Shown here piece by piece: positions 425 through 8,490 of a DNA stretch of 8,606 nt (position 1 is the first letter of the stretch; each line of letters starts with the position of its first letter). Both the position numbers and the translations under genes were made by a program. The DNA is taken from the NCBI GenBank assembly GCA_021789095.1, contig JAJYJX010000111.1:1-8606 (forward strand), written 5' to 3'. The notes below the pieces were generated by a model, which saw only the letters and a program-made list of their open reading frames with translations, searched no databases and had not been told where the DNA came from. This stretch comes from a bacterium. Its GTDB lineage: Bacteria > JAMCPX01.

Positions 425-682
425 TCAGGCAGCTTTTGTCTTGCCTATATTCTCAAGAACCCACATCCTTACAAGCTCAAGATAGCCTATGCCCTTGCTG
501 TTTGCTATCTTCTTTAATTTCTTAATTGTAGCATCATCAAGTCTCAGTGAAACAAGTTTTTTCTTTGGACGTGTGAATTGCACTCTAACCTCTTTTGTTT
601 CTGACAGATAGTCTGTGCTGTCATGGGTTGACCAAAAATCGGCCTCTTTTTTTTCTGATTTAAACTTTGGTATTCTTTTCAT
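425..682 (-). CDS. BrnA/CopG-type ribbon-helix-helix antitoxin
   Basis: An 85-residue protein with the hallmark N-terminal segment of the CopG-type antitoxin family associated with BrnT-like toxins: IPKFKSEKKEADFWSTHDST, then DYL (residues 4-26). A ribbon-helix-helix region follows: beta strand KLVSLRLDD (about 42-50), then helix ATIKKLKKIANSKG and helix LELVRMWVLENI. In this family the N-terminal part wraps the toxin and the ribbon-helix-helix dimer binds the operon promoter. The start is well supported: CGGAGG lies about 9 nt upstream, and ATGA makes a 4-nt overlap with the toxin remnant, the usual toxin-first order of brnT-brnA operons. The antitoxin looks intact although its toxin partner is truncated. 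The family assignment is confident; whether it is still expressed is not known. Confidence 0.85.
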   Translation of the reverse strand: MKRIPKFKSEKKEADFWSTHDSTDYLSETKEVRVQFTRPKKKLVSLRLDDATIKKLKKIANSKGIGYLELVRMWVLENIGKTKAA

Positions 683-915
683 TTCTCTTGCCTCCGCTTA
701 TATAGAGATTTCTCTCTCTCAGTCATATCTCTTGCTGTTATTGTCCTGAATATACCCTTGCCTTTATTTACCCCAACGATAAAAACGTATCTGCCGCTGT
801 ACGTAGACCCATATACGAGATACCTCATATCAGCAGTCCTCCTCACATAGGGTCTATTCATACAAGTAAAAATAGGGACAGCGACCGTTTTCTGTGTACA
901 AACATACATAAGCAA
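679..915 (-). pseudogene. 5'-truncated BrnT-family toxin, upstream end replaced by transposon-end sequence
   Basis: The C-terminal part is clearly BrnT-like: RYLVYGSTYSGRYVFIVG, then a short loop and TITARDMTEREKSLYKRR, matching the last strands and the conserved ARxMTxxEKxxY helix of this RelE-fold ribonuclease family. Full members have about 85-95 residues and begin with a W-D-x-x-K...KH segment followed by a helix ending near this protein's NRPYV. Here that first third is absent. The codons before Met19 (position 861) are translated from the RAYT end repeat (QKTVAVPIF corresponds to 866-892), so they are not native toxin sequence. A 60-residue product could still start at 861. It overlaps the antitoxin start by 4 nt. 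I infer the toxin is inactive because the N-terminal region carrying conserved residues is gone. Confidence 0.75.
869..892 (+). repeat. Left terminal inverted repeat of the RAYT element
   Basis: A 24-nt sequence with core GGGACAGCGACC flanked by an AAAAT arm and a TTTTC arm. Its inverted partner is at 1657-1680, with one mismatch (G887 pairs with the position that is A on the partner copy's complement). It forms a weak internal hairpin of about 8 bp including a wobble. It lies inside the reading frame of the toxin remnant. Confidence 0.85.
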
Positions 916-946
916 ACATCGTAAGCGAACCTTCCTGGTAAGATTG

Positions 947-1612
947 CTATTTCTCTTTCCCTGGTCTGCCCCATTTCATGGCCCTTACTCTTCTCCCAAG
1001 TAATCCCTCTATACCCGCTACGAAGCCTTCATCCCCACATGGACGCCCTGTCAATGAGTGCATCCGTATATCTTTTATAGCCTCATTATCATCCTCATTT
1101 CCCAGAAATACAAGCCAATCCTTCGCTCCTACCCCGATAGGATAATCGATACTTACTATAGGATCTGTTACACGGTTCATATGTCCCAATGTGCTTGACC
1201 AGATATATTTCTCAGGGCTGTTCACTATCTTTGCGCGCACAGGATTGTTTTCAACATACCGGATAGCTGCCCGTAAATGTCTCTCATCCAATGCACAGGA
1301 GAAAAACCGCCCCTGCCACAGGTGACCCTTGAGTTCCTTTTTCCTGTGGAAATACTGGGAGTACCGCATGTGTAGGGTATTAAAAGTACGTGCAAGAGAA
1401 TCAGCACGGAGTGGAACACACACAAAATGGACATGATTGGTCATCAGGCAATATGCCCCTATCTTTAATCCATACTGCTCGCTGTATACCTTGAGCCATA
1501 ATTTGTATCTGAGAAAATCGGCTTCATTATCGAAGACACGCTGGCGATAATTCCCGCGCTGCGTTACATGATATGGATAGTCCTTAACAACAACTCTCGC
1601 TATTCTGGGCAT
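947..1612 (-). CDS. REP-associated tyrosine transposase (RAYT, Y1/IS200-like HUH family)
   Basis: A 221-residue protein with the whole RAYT layout. HVTQRGN lies at 15-21; the metal-binding HUH-type motif MTNHVHF has His60 and His62; GHLWQGRF is at 97-104; and RYVENNPVRA is at 118-127. Tyr119 in that last motif is the probable nucleophile. The C-terminal TGRPCGDEGF...LLGRRVR module is typical of RAYTs with a DNA-binding tail. In this family the enzyme cuts single-stranded DNA at palindromic REP-like hairpins through a phosphotyrosine link. The length is normal and no stops or frameshifts are seen, so it may be functional. The start has no clear Shine-Dalgarno sequence; another ATG four bases upstream is out of frame. 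The gene is alone inside its inverted repeats and points toward the toxin remnant, so read-through could transcribe the antitoxin. Confidence 0.9.
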   Translation of the reverse strand: MPRIARVVVKDYPYHVTQRGNYRQRVFDNEADFLRYKLWLKVYSEQYGLKIGAYCLMTNHVHFVCVPLRADSLARTFNTLHMRYSQYFHRKKELKGHLWQGRFFSCALDERHLRAAIRYVENNPVRAKIVNSPEKYIWSSTLGHMNRVTDPIVSIDYPIGVGAKDWLVFLGNEDDNEAIKDIRMHSLTGRPCGDEGFVAGIEGLLGRRVRAMKWGRPGKEK

Positions 1613-1623
1613 CCATTTCTGTT

Positions 1624-1647
1624 ATTATATTTCTTCGTAATTGTCAA
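1624..1647 (-). promoter_or_regulatory. Possible promoter of the RAYT gene with abnormal spacing
   Basis: Read on the minus strand, an exact TTGACA (1642-1647) is followed by an exact TATAAT (1624-1629), immediately upstream of the transposase start. The spacer is only 12 bp against the usual 16-18, so as a sigma70 promoter this would be weak or non-functional. It may be a coincidence of AT-rich sequence. Confidence 0.25.
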
Positions 1648-1801
1648 AGTATAAACGAAAATGGTCGCTGTCCCTATTTTCGGTATAGATCCCGAGATTT
1701 GTCCATGCAAATACGAATACTAAAAAGGCAGCCGTTGACTTTAACAAAGAAGGTTTGAAAATATCCTTATGAAAACCGATCTTGTGAGAGATGATCTTCA
1801 T
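1625..1801 (-). pseudogene. N-terminal stub of an exported or membrane protein, cut by the RAYT element
   Basis: A strong start is present: AGGAGGG lies 3 bases before ATG at 1801, a little close but near-perfect in sequence. The protein begins MKIISHKIGFHKDIFKPSLL, basic and polar, then has a hydrophobic segment AAFLVFVFAWTNLGIY (about residues 24-39). This looks like a signal peptide or membrane anchor. After about residue 40 the codons come from the element's inverted repeat (ENRDSDHF), and the frame ends at TAA 1625-1627, giving 58 residues in all. The native gene therefore survives only as about 40 codons plus its control region. A TTGACA box at 1846-1851 (minus strand) lies a plausible distance upstream. 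The downstream domains, and so the function, cannot be known from here. It is not the missing N-terminus of the toxin. Confidence 0.55.
1657..1680 (-). repeat. Right terminal inverted repeat of the RAYT element
   Basis: The complement of this 24-mer equals the copy at 869-892 except for one base. It contains GGTCGCTGTCCC flanked by GAAAAT and TATTTT. The reading frame from the exported-protein stub at 1801 runs straight into it. Confidence 0.85.
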
Positions 1802-1815
1802 GAACCCTCCTGATA
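1794..1815. repeat. Copy 2 of the 22-nt direct repeat
   Basis: Identical to 347-368 at 21 of 22 positions in the same orientation. It spans the Shine-Dalgarno sequence and first codons of the exported-protein stub. The two copies are 1,447 bp apart and bracket the toxin-antitoxin remnant and RAYT element. Confidence 0.6.
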
Positions 1816-1822
1816 AATACTA

Positions 1823-1851
1823 CTGCTATAAAAACACCAATATTCTGTCAA
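1823..1851 (-). promoter_or_regulatory. Possible promoter for the exported-protein stub
   Basis: On the minus strand an exact TTGACA (1846-1851) is followed by TATAGC (1825-1830) at 15-bp spacing, or by TAGCAG (1823-1828) at 17 bp. The -35 box is perfect but the -10 box is poor. It sits about 25 nt before the start codon at 1801. Confidence 0.35.
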
Positions 1852-1882
1852 GATAATTCGTATTTCATTGTAAAAGAAAACG

Positions 1883-1973
1883 AAGGGCGCACACAGGCGT
1901 GTACGTCCTCGATGCCAAGTCGCCGGCAGCCCCACCTTGTTCAAAAAACGTCCGTTTTCCGAACGCCCTTTTT
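1883..1973 (+). ncRNA. GC-rich structured element with terminator-like end (possible small RNA or leader)
   Basis: In otherwise AT-rich non-coding DNA, AAGGGCG (1883-1889) can pair perfectly with CGCCCTT (1964-1970), which runs into five T. Inside are a 4-bp ACAC/GTGT hairpin (1891-1902), a GCCGGC palindrome (1922-1927), and a local hairpin CGTCCG-TTTTC-CGAACG (1949-1965, one mismatch) that competes with the closing stem. The layout resembles a small transcript ending at an intrinsic terminator, or an attenuator. No promoter is obvious before it and I recognise no known riboswitch class. It could also be a dispersed genomic repeat. Confidence 0.3.
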
Positions 1974-2027
1974 AAATCTTGTTTTTAGAGTGAACCCCCT
2001 GCCCTGTTTTTGACACCTTTTTTTCCC

Positions 2028-2062
2028 CCACCCCTTTTTGACGTTTACAGGGTGGTTTTTTT
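2028..2062 (+). terminator. Terminator-like hairpin with T tract
   Basis: CCACCC (2028-2033) pairs with GGGTGG (2050-2055) across a 16-nt loop and is followed directly by seven T. It faces plus-strand transcription although no plus-strand gene lies upstream in the window, so it may end the putative structured transcript at 1883-1973. The large loop weakens the case. Confidence 0.4.
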
Positions 2063-2235
2063 ACCAGTACCTGCCACGGGAATGATGTGATTTTTGTCCT
2101 TGCTTTTGTTTGAGTTCGTGAGTAGGGTCGCCTTATTTAAAGTCCCGTGCCTGTATCTGAATCCCGTAAATGACCGAAAAAAACATTATTAAAAACTTTT
2201 CTTTAATCCGTGTACATGTTTGTATTATATGTCTG

Positions 2236-3762: not shown

Positions 3763-3795
3763 TGACGAAACTCTTATAACATGCGGGAGGCAGAC

Positions 3796-4776
3796 ATGGT
3801 TCCATCTTTTGATTATGTAATAGAGCATAAGGGCATTTCGGAACAGGAAGCGAAAAAGCTCAGTATACTCACACACGAACATATGGCAAAGCTTTTTGAA
3901 GTAACAAACGCCCTGAGACAGCATTTCAAGGGCAACGGTGTAAACATCTGTTCCATAATAAATGCGAAATCCGGCTTATGCCCTGAAGACTGTACATTTT
4001 GCGCCCAGTCAGCGCATTACAAAACAGCAGCAAAAAGATATCCGTTATTGAAGCCCGATATTATAGTTGAAAAGGCCAGGAATGCTGTTGGCTGGGGGGC
4101 AAGGGGGTTTTCAATAGTAACGAGCGGATACGGTATAGATAACCAGTCCGATCTCGATGAAGTTGCCAATGCGATAAAAGGTATTGCAGAACATACACCA
4201 ATGTACGGATGTGCCTCCCTTGGCATACTTACAAAACATGAATTGAGCTATTTAAAGGATGCAGGACTCGTAAAGTACCATCATAACCTTGAAACCTCGA
4301 GGTCGTTTTTCCCCGGGGTCTGCACCACCCATCCATACGACGATGACATAGAAGCTGTAAAAAATGCAAAACAGGCAGGGTTGAATGTTTGCAGCGGGGG
4401 TATATTCGGGCTAGGTGAATCATGGGATGATCGTATTGAACTTGCATTTACTCTTAAAGATCTCAATGTTGATTCCGTACCGATAAACTTTTTAAATCCT
4501 ATAAAGGGCACACCTCTCGAAGGGAAAACCCTTTTAACTCCAATAGAATGCCTGAAAATAATAGCCATATTCAGGTTGATTCTGCCTGAGAAAGACATCG
4601 TTATATGCGGCGGCAGAGAGGTGAATCTCAGGGATATGCAATCCATGATCTTCTATGCGGGTGCAAACGGCATGATGACAGGCGGATATCTTACAACATC
4701 GGGTAGGCCCGTAGAAGATGATTTACGAATGATCCACGATCTTGGTTTTGAGGTATCAAAACCCATAACAGTATGA
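3796..4776 (+). CDS. bioB: Biotin synthase, apparently of the anaerobe (Type II-like) class
   Basis: A radical SAM enzyme that inserts sulfur into dethiobiotin to close the thiophane ring, the last step of biotin synthesis. I chose ATG 3796 over the in-frame ATG at 3781 because GGGAGG (3785-3790) is 5 nt upstream of it and nothing precedes 3781; this gives 326 residues. The [4Fe-4S]/SAM motif is C62-P-E-D-C66-T-F-C69. Of the four ligands of the sacrificial [2Fe-2S] cluster in E. coli BioB (Cys97, Cys128, Cys188, Arg260), three have counterparts here: Cys139 (GCASLG), Cys199 (NVCSGG) and Arg274 (GGREVN). The first is Ser106 (GFSIVTSG). An extra Cys176 lies in PGVCTTHPYDD. This pattern suggests the oxygen-sensitive class reported to use an auxiliary 4Fe-5S cluster. 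The gene overlaps bioF by 4 nt. Confidence 0.95.
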   Translation: MVPSFDYVIEHKGISEQEAKKLSILTHEHMAKLFEVTNALRQHFKGNGVNICSIINAKSGLCPEDCTFCAQSAHYKTAAKRYPLLKPDIIVEKARNAVGWGARGFSIVTSGYGIDNQSDLDEVANAIKGIAEHTPMYGCASLGILTKHELSYLKDAGLVKYHHNLETSRSFFPGVCTTHPYDDDIEAVKNAKQAGLNVCSGGIFGLGESWDDRIELAFTLKDLNVDSVPINFLNPIKGTPLEGKTLLTPIECLKIIAIFRLILPEKDIVICGGREVNLRDMQSMIFYAGANGMMTGGYLTTSGRPVEDDLRMIHDLGFEVSKPITV

Positions 4777-5960
4777 CCGATCCATTAGATACGCTGTCCG
4801 GGGCACTTGAGGAAATAAAGCAAAAGGGCCTTTTGAGATCCATGCATACTATAGAAAGCATGCAGGGACCTGTCGTTAAAATAAATGGCAGGGACGTCAT
4901 CCTCATGTGTTCAAACAACTATCTCGGTCTTGCAAACCATCCGGAGCTTATAAGGACGGCCGCATCTGCAGCCAGGAAGTATGGTGTCTCTGCAGGAGCA
5001 TCAAGGCTTATATCAGGCAATATGTCTGCGCATGAACAACTCGAACATGACACGGCCGGGTTCAAAAGGACAGAGTCCGCCCTTGTTTTCAATTCCGGTT
5101 ACCACGCCAATACAGGAATCATATCAGCCGTAGCAGATGCGGATACCGCAGTATTATCGGATGAATTAAACCATGCATCAATTATAGATGGAATAAGGCT
5201 AAGCAGGGCACAGGTATATATATACAAACACCGTAATGTAAATATGGTAGAAGATATGCTCAGATCTATAAACAACGAAAGCCATGACAATAAGCTATCA
5301 AAGAAACTCATAGTAACAGACAGTGTTTTCAGCATGGACGGAGATATTGCACCTTTAAAGGAACTCGTAATGCTTGCTGAAAAATATAATGCGATAATCA
5401 TGATCGATGAGGCACACGCAACAGGAGTGCTCGGCAAGAACGGTGCAGGTGCGGCAGAGATGCTGGGTGTGAGTAGCGGCATACACATACAGATGGGCAC
5501 GTTCAGCAAGGCACTGGGGAGTTTCGGTGCTTATGCAGCTGGAAGCAGGCCATTCACCGATTTCATTATAAACAGTGCACGCTCATTTATCTTCACGACA
5601 GCTTTGCCCCCGGCTGTCTGCGCTGTAAGTTCAAAAGCTATTCAACTCGTACAAAAACATCCTGAACTAAGACAAAAACTCACCGACAATATCAATTTTT
5701 TAAGGAACGGTCTGAGAAGCATAGGTTTTAATATCGCCCATGATCCGACCCCGATTATATCTCTCATAATAGGCGATGCCGATAAAACCATGCAATTATC
5801 ATCGATGCTCCTTGGGAAAGGGGTCTTTGTTTCAGGCATAAGGCCGCCGTCTGTCCCTGACGGGACATCAAGATTACGGTTGACGGTCACTGCAGCACAC
5901 ACAAGGCAAATGCTTATAAAGGTTCTCGACGCAATAAAAAACGTCTGCAGTTTCATATAG
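4773..5960 (+). CDS. bioF: 8-amino-7-oxononanoate synthase (alpha-oxoamine synthase family)
   Basis: A 395-residue PLP enzyme that condenses pimeloyl-ACP (or pimeloyl-CoA) with L-alanine to form 8-amino-7-oxononanoate, the first committed step of biotin ring assembly. The PLP-binding lysine is K246 in GTFSKALGSFGAY. D212 and H215 lie in IDEAHATGVLG, and H134 in LNHAS stacks on the cofactor in homologues. The substrate-side motif SNNYLGLANHPE is at 47-58 and the glycine-rich GVSAGASRLISG at 71-82. The close relative glycine C-acetyltransferase (Kbl) has the same motifs; adjacency to bioB decides the assignment. The ATG lies in the bioB stop (ATGA) and has no nearby Shine-Dalgarno sequence, so translation is probably coupled. 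bioA and bioD are not adjacent; the next gene has its own promoter. Confidence 0.88.
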   Translation: MTDPLDTLSGALEEIKQKGLLRSMHTIESMQGPVVKINGRDVILMCSNNYLGLANHPELIRTAASAARKYGVSAGASRLISGNMSAHEQLEHDTAGFKRTESALVFNSGYHANTGIISAVADADTAVLSDELNHASIIDGIRLSRAQVYIYKHRNVNMVEDMLRSINNESHDNKLSKKLIVTDSVFSMDGDIAPLKELVMLAEKYNAIIMIDEAHATGVLGKNGAGAAEMLGVSSGIHIQMGTFSKALGSFGAYAAGSRPFTDFIINSARSFIFTTALPPAVCAVSSKAIQLVQKHPELRQKLTDNINFLRNGLRSIGFNIAHDPTPIISLIIGDADKTMQLSSMLLGKGVFVSGIRPPSVPDGTSRLRLTVTAAHTRQMLIKVLDAIKNVCSFI

Positions 5961-8378: not shown

Positions 8379-8490
8379 CGTCATTCCTGCGAAAGCAGGA
8401 ATCCAGAAGTCATGCTCGTTCGTAATTGGGAGTATTTTTAATTTATATGACAACAGTAAAGGACTGGATTCCCGTCTTCACGGGAATGAC
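8379..8490. repeat. MITE-like paired palindrome ('VIPAKAGIQ' repeat, dRS3-like)
   Basis: Two hairpins face each other. The left end (8379-8406) contains ATTCCTGC-GAAA-GCAGGAAT (8383-8402), an 8-bp stem on a GNRA loop. The right end (8464-8490) contains ATTCCCGT-CTTC-ACGGGAAT (8468-8487), also 8 bp. The outer GTCATTCC and GGAATGAC, and the inner GGAATCCAG and CTGGATTCC, make the two ends inverted copies around a 57-nt AT-rich core. Sequences of this form are scattered through many proteobacterial and related genomes and often give spurious 'VIPAKAGIQ...SRLHGND' translations, as here. It encodes nothing itself and would need a transposase elsewhere to move. Confidence 0.85.

Follow-up and report, generated by a model that had tools for sequence, protein, structure and literature searches.

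A biotin synthase gene with the ligand pattern of the Type II class, and terminal oxidases in genomes that share it

The bioB-bioF locus

The window, by which is meant the whole 8,606-nucleotide stretch of DNA that was analyzed, contains two genes of biotin synthesis on the forward strand. The features that define this locus are as follows:

3796..4776, + strand: bioB, biotin synthase with the Type II ligand pattern; 326 aa when read from the start that the sister genes share
3785..3790, + strand: Shine-Dalgarno-like GGGAGG before the ATG at 3796, read from the sequence
4773..5960, + strand: bioF, 8-amino-7-oxononanoate synthase (TIGR00858, 469 bits; cut-off 426)

Read from its first ATG, the bioB open reading frame occupies 3781-4776 (+) and comprises 331 aa. 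Comparison with sister genes points to a start further downstream. L002, L003, and L005 have GGAG and then ATG at the same place as window position 3796, and L004 is otherwise similar at this site with GAGGT in place of GGAG; an ATG equivalent to that at 3781 was found in none of the four sister genes compared. The start at 3796, giving 326 aa, is preferred because the sister genes have the Shine-Dalgarno-like motif and ATG there and lack the ATG at 3781. This start and the residue numbering that follows from it had been adopted in the preliminary description, and the sister genes make them the better choice.

The encoded protein scores 412 bits against the BioB equivalog model TIGR00433, above the cut-off of 225, and contains both a radical SAM domain (PF04055, 76 bits) and a BATS domain (PF06968). 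It is the only BioB in the genome from which the window derives. The bioB and bioF genes overlap by 4 bases, and L002, L003, and L005 share the gene order purB-bioB-bioF, whereas L004 shares bioB-bioF. Away from this pair, the same genome carries bioA (542 bits) and bioD (166 bits), whose predicted products complete the late biotin pathway. BioB is thus accompanied by the pathway context expected of a biotin synthase, in the form of the overlapping bioF and the presence of bioA and bioD.

Searches of the window detected no tRNA and no riboswitch or other Rfam family. A gene at 947-1612 (-) resembles those of REP-associated tyrosine transposases (65 bits, below the cut-off of 80) and is flanked by a 24-nt inverted pair at 869-892 and 1657-1680 that is 96% complementary; elsewhere in the draft genome, the core motif of this pair recurs just once, as a near-copy. 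At 425-915 (-), a CopG-type antitoxin gene adjoins a BrnT-like toxin ORF whose similarity to the BrnT profile is confined to the C-terminal half (positions 37-77), and the 5' part of the BrnT-like ORF seems to have been lost at the transposase element. At 8380-8490 lies a palindromic repeat, dispersed in the genome and made up of GTCATTCCTGCGAAAGCAGGAATCCAG and a distal inverted arm; it has 29 copies there at ≤3 mismatches (0 for the reversed control) and in frame reads VIPAKAGIQ.

Cluster-site residues and relation to Type II structures

In all BioB enzymes, the cluster bound by the CxxxCxxC motif reductively cleaves SAM, and the resulting 5'-deoxyadenosyl radical abstracts hydrogens from dethiobiotin. 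The auxiliary cluster of the E. coli enzyme is a sacrificed [2Fe-2S] held by Cys97, Cys128, Cys188, and Arg260. The Type II class of biotin synthases was reportedly described in a 2024 JACS study on the enzymes of Veillonella parvula (8VDW) and Blautia obeum (8VCW), whose structures were released in January 2024. Two papers citing this study describe the Type II class as BioB of anaerobes with a [4Fe-5S] auxiliary cluster, whose ligated sulfide is proposed to be used in biotin formation (PMC11138216, PMC11099021). An obligately anaerobic host is an association reported for the class rather than part of its definition. With residues counted from the start at 3796, the two cluster sites of the window BioB contain the following:

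3979..4002, + strand: CxxxCxxC motif of the radical-SAM [4Fe-4S] cluster, Cys62, Cys66, and Cys69 (invariant columns in the 54-sequence alignment A1)
4111..4113, + strand: Ser106 in GFSIVTSG, at the E. coli Cys97 position (alignments; Ser also in 8vdw and 8vcw)
4210..4212, + strand: Cys139, at the E. coli Cys128 position (alignments)
4321..4323, + strand: Cys176 of the CTTH motif (PGVCTTHPYDD), Type II-specific candidate cluster ligand (Cys also in 8vdw and 8vcw)
4390..4392, + strand: Cys199 in VCSGG, at the E. coli Cys188 position (invariant column in A1)
4615..4617, + strand: Arg274 in GGRE, at the E. coli Arg260 position (≥90% conserved in A1)

Every one of these residues had been named in the preliminary description, and all are present by translation and alignment. 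In the four columns of the auxiliary site, the window BioB has S/C/C/C, as do 8vdw and 8vcw, whereas E. coli 1R30 reads C/C/I/C. Alignment with the E. coli and Type II enzymes placed Ser106 in the Cys97 column, occupied by Ser in both Type II structures and by the Cys of FCMGA in 1R30; the window protein therefore lacks the Cys that characterizes Type I BioB. The CTTH site reads DICTTH in 8vdw, NICTTH in 8vcw, and NIITTRTY in 1R30, with Ile opposite Cys176, and the phmmer alignment of the window BioB to 1R30 has no gap from CTTH to CSGG. Only 8vdw and 8vcw, and not 1r30, combine the Ser with the CTTH Cys and the two cysteines equivalent to Cys128 and Cys188. All six members of the family are identical at the auxiliary-site columns, and they group together as a supported clade with a single ligand pattern when the ligand columns are left out of the tree building. 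More broadly, the absence of Cys at the first site with Cys at the other three was found in 38 of the 84 aligned rows, including the two Type II structures. Judged from the six family members and the 38 rows, the Ser/Cys/Cys/Cys pattern is not due to chance.

Overall sequence and fold gave the same ranking. The best PDB sequence matches were 8vdw (319 bits) and 8vcw (243 bits), followed by E. coli 1r30 (182 bits); identity is 43-46% to 8VDW, 37-38% to 8VCW, and ~30% to 1R30. An AlphaFold2 model of the window BioB (pLDDT 96.2) was compared with the same structures by VIA-align, yielding Z scores of 49.4, 46.8, and 41.7 and rmsd values of 1.4, 1.5, and 1.7 for 8vdw, 8vcw, and 1r30, respectively, and the structure ranking from Foldseek agreed. 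The BioB fold, the radical-SAM motif, and the conserved Arg are common to the window BioB and both Type II structures. The E. coli enzyme also shares the fold, the radical-SAM cluster motif, and the equivalents of Cys128, Cys188, and Arg260, but differs in having its own Cys97 where the window BioB has Ser and Ile in place of the CTTH Cys. Because 8VDW and 8VCW share its pattern, the window BioB is assigned to the published Type II class as a new member, and the gene very probably encodes a working biotin synthase of that class. The class membership suggested in the preliminary description is thus supported by both the ligand pattern and the nearest sequences and folds. The same holds, by homology, for its proposal that Cys176 is the substitute ligand: a Cys occupies the same alignment column in 8VDW and 8VCW, and a role for Cys176 in binding the auxiliary cluster is strongly implied. 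The window BioB would extend the published class by one more lineage.

Proposed auxiliary-cluster chemistry and ligand diversity

By homology with the Type II enzymes, the auxiliary cluster of the window BioB would be held by Cys139, Cys176, and Cys199, replacing the E. coli set of Cys97, Cys128, Cys188, and Arg260. The cluster would be a [4Fe-5S] cluster, with the extra sulfide, rather than a sacrificed [2Fe-2S], serving as the sulfur source for biotin. Homology is the basis for naming the kind of cluster, for the role given to Cys176 as a ligand, and for the source of the sulfur; the sequence, the ligand pattern, the predicted fold, the operon, and the genes of the pathway were observed directly.

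The same residues might instead serve a Type I mechanism in which the ligands have been shuffled: a [2Fe-2S] cluster would be bound by Cys139, Cys176, Cys199, and Arg274, with Ser106 standing in for Cys97, and sulfur would be sacrificed as in E. coli. Arg274 is kept, the E. coli site likewise has three Cys and one Arg, and changes of ligand set are frequent in the family (17 changes on the tree), all of which would be compatible with such an arrangement. We nevertheless consider it improbable, since both Type II structures are matched residue for residue at the ligand sites and lie nearer to the window BioB than 1r30 does in sequence and in fold. Even less credence is given to the reading that the protein is a paralogue resembling BioB, such as HydE, PylB, or a different radical SAM enzyme, and makes no biotin. 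The fold is common to HydE and PylB, but the TIGR00433 cut-off is exceeded by a wide margin, the scores from the models for HydE and PylB fall well short of their own cut-offs, and a HydE or PylB origin was rejected on these family scores; the overlap with bioF, the presence of bioA and bioD, and the single copy in the genome are also at odds with a paralogue.

Beyond the Type II pattern, nine combinations of auxiliary-site residues occur in the 84 aligned rows, and on the tree built without the ligand columns they require at least 17 changes. Among them are proteins that have Cys in all four columns, proteins in which Asp takes the Cys128 site, and proteins that lack the CTTH Cys. The four-cysteine BioB proteins (Gastranaerophilales, Blastocatellia, and some Planctomycetota) resemble the window BioB in their CTTH Cys and in the equivalents of Cys128 and Cys188, but differ from it in also keeping the Cys97 equivalent. 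Asp at the Cys128 site was found in Calditerrivibrio, Dormibacterota, and some Planctomycetota. The abstract of the 2024 Type II study is said to report unexpected variation in coordination already, and the ligand diversity is therefore not claimed here as new. BioB homologues with Asp in the column of window Cys139 (L020, L024, L033, L015, L099, L095, L030, L034-L037, and L040) occur with or without a Cys at the Cys97 position, and this Asp may bind the cluster in place of Cys. Six others (L090, L096, L098, L100, L103, and L091) have only one or two Cys at the four auxiliary columns, which could reflect either a different cluster chemistry, shifts in the alignment, or a function other than that of BioB.

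Type II BioB and oxygen respiration

The draft genome containing the window (2.15 Mb, 92% complete) encodes an Fe/Mn superoxide dismutase and an NO reductase of the cytochrome-c type (NorB; 428 bits against 3o0r). Neither the class III ribonucleotide reductase NrdD nor a canonical aa3 or bd oxygen reductase was found in this 92% complete draft. A COX1 match in the genome (L113) was rejected as an oxygen reductase because its best relatives, to judge from the score against 3o0r, are NorB proteins. A bd-like ORF at 760-2160 (-) of contig G000:C139 (L118) matches CydA weakly, contains the c-haem motif CSACH, and is matched by no NCBIfam model; it could be an unrecognized oxygen reductase or another membrane oxidoreductase, and similar weak CydA matches occur in several sister genomes.

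Close relatives of the window's genome have terminal oxidases, a difference from the Type II enzymes of known structure. Four sister genomes combine the same BioB pattern with such an oxidase. G001 and G005 carry CtaD of an aa3-type cytochrome c oxidase (654-657 bits, slightly below the NCBIfam cut-off of 671), with CoxIII- and SCO-like neighbors by inspection, and G004 and G006 carry CydA (592-605 bits). The strict pattern was present in 23 of the sampled genomes; a strong haem-copper match was found in 5 of these, a CydA match in 9, and neither in 9, at thresholds of our own choice (290 bits to PF00115 for haem-copper oxidases and 300 bits for CydA). Only the haem-copper cases are clear evidence here, since strict anaerobes often have bd oxidases too. 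Contamination of binned genomes is a possible source of the oxidase genes, because most of the sampled genomes are metagenome bins, although the ratings for G001 are 99% completeness and 0% contamination. Across 50 genomes, haem-copper oxidases were found in 11 of 23 with Cys at the Cys97 site and in 9 of 27 without (Fisher p = 0.39), a comparison that contains only 2-3 phylogenetically independent pairs, and no conclusion on an association is therefore drawn.

The preliminary interpretation had gone from Type II membership and a Cys176 ligand to the statement that the BioB pattern marks an anaerobe. Its first two parts stand, the second by homology, and the last step is not supported, given that sisters with the same BioB have CtaD or CydA and that the gene content of the window's own genome points neither way; the bioB gene says little on whether the host is a strict anaerobe. 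We tentatively raise a broader reading, to which we give somewhat less than even weight: Type II BioB would be kept and used in oxygen-respiring organisms, such as the sisters with aa3 or bd oxidases, so that [4Fe-5S] would not be confined to strict anaerobes, and the auxiliary ligands would be labile, with four-cysteine forms as intermediates and forms with Asp for Cys128. The Type II motif should, with due caution, not be taken as proof of strict anaerobiosis, and lineages that combine Type II ligands with an aa3 oxidase offer good cases for studying the oxygen tolerance of the [4Fe-5S] enzyme. A separate COX1 match, at G094:C3:14026-15366 in a Lentisphaeria metagenome bin (the genome of L039), contains 10 in-frame TGA codons, and its contig is possibly mitochondrial and misbinned.
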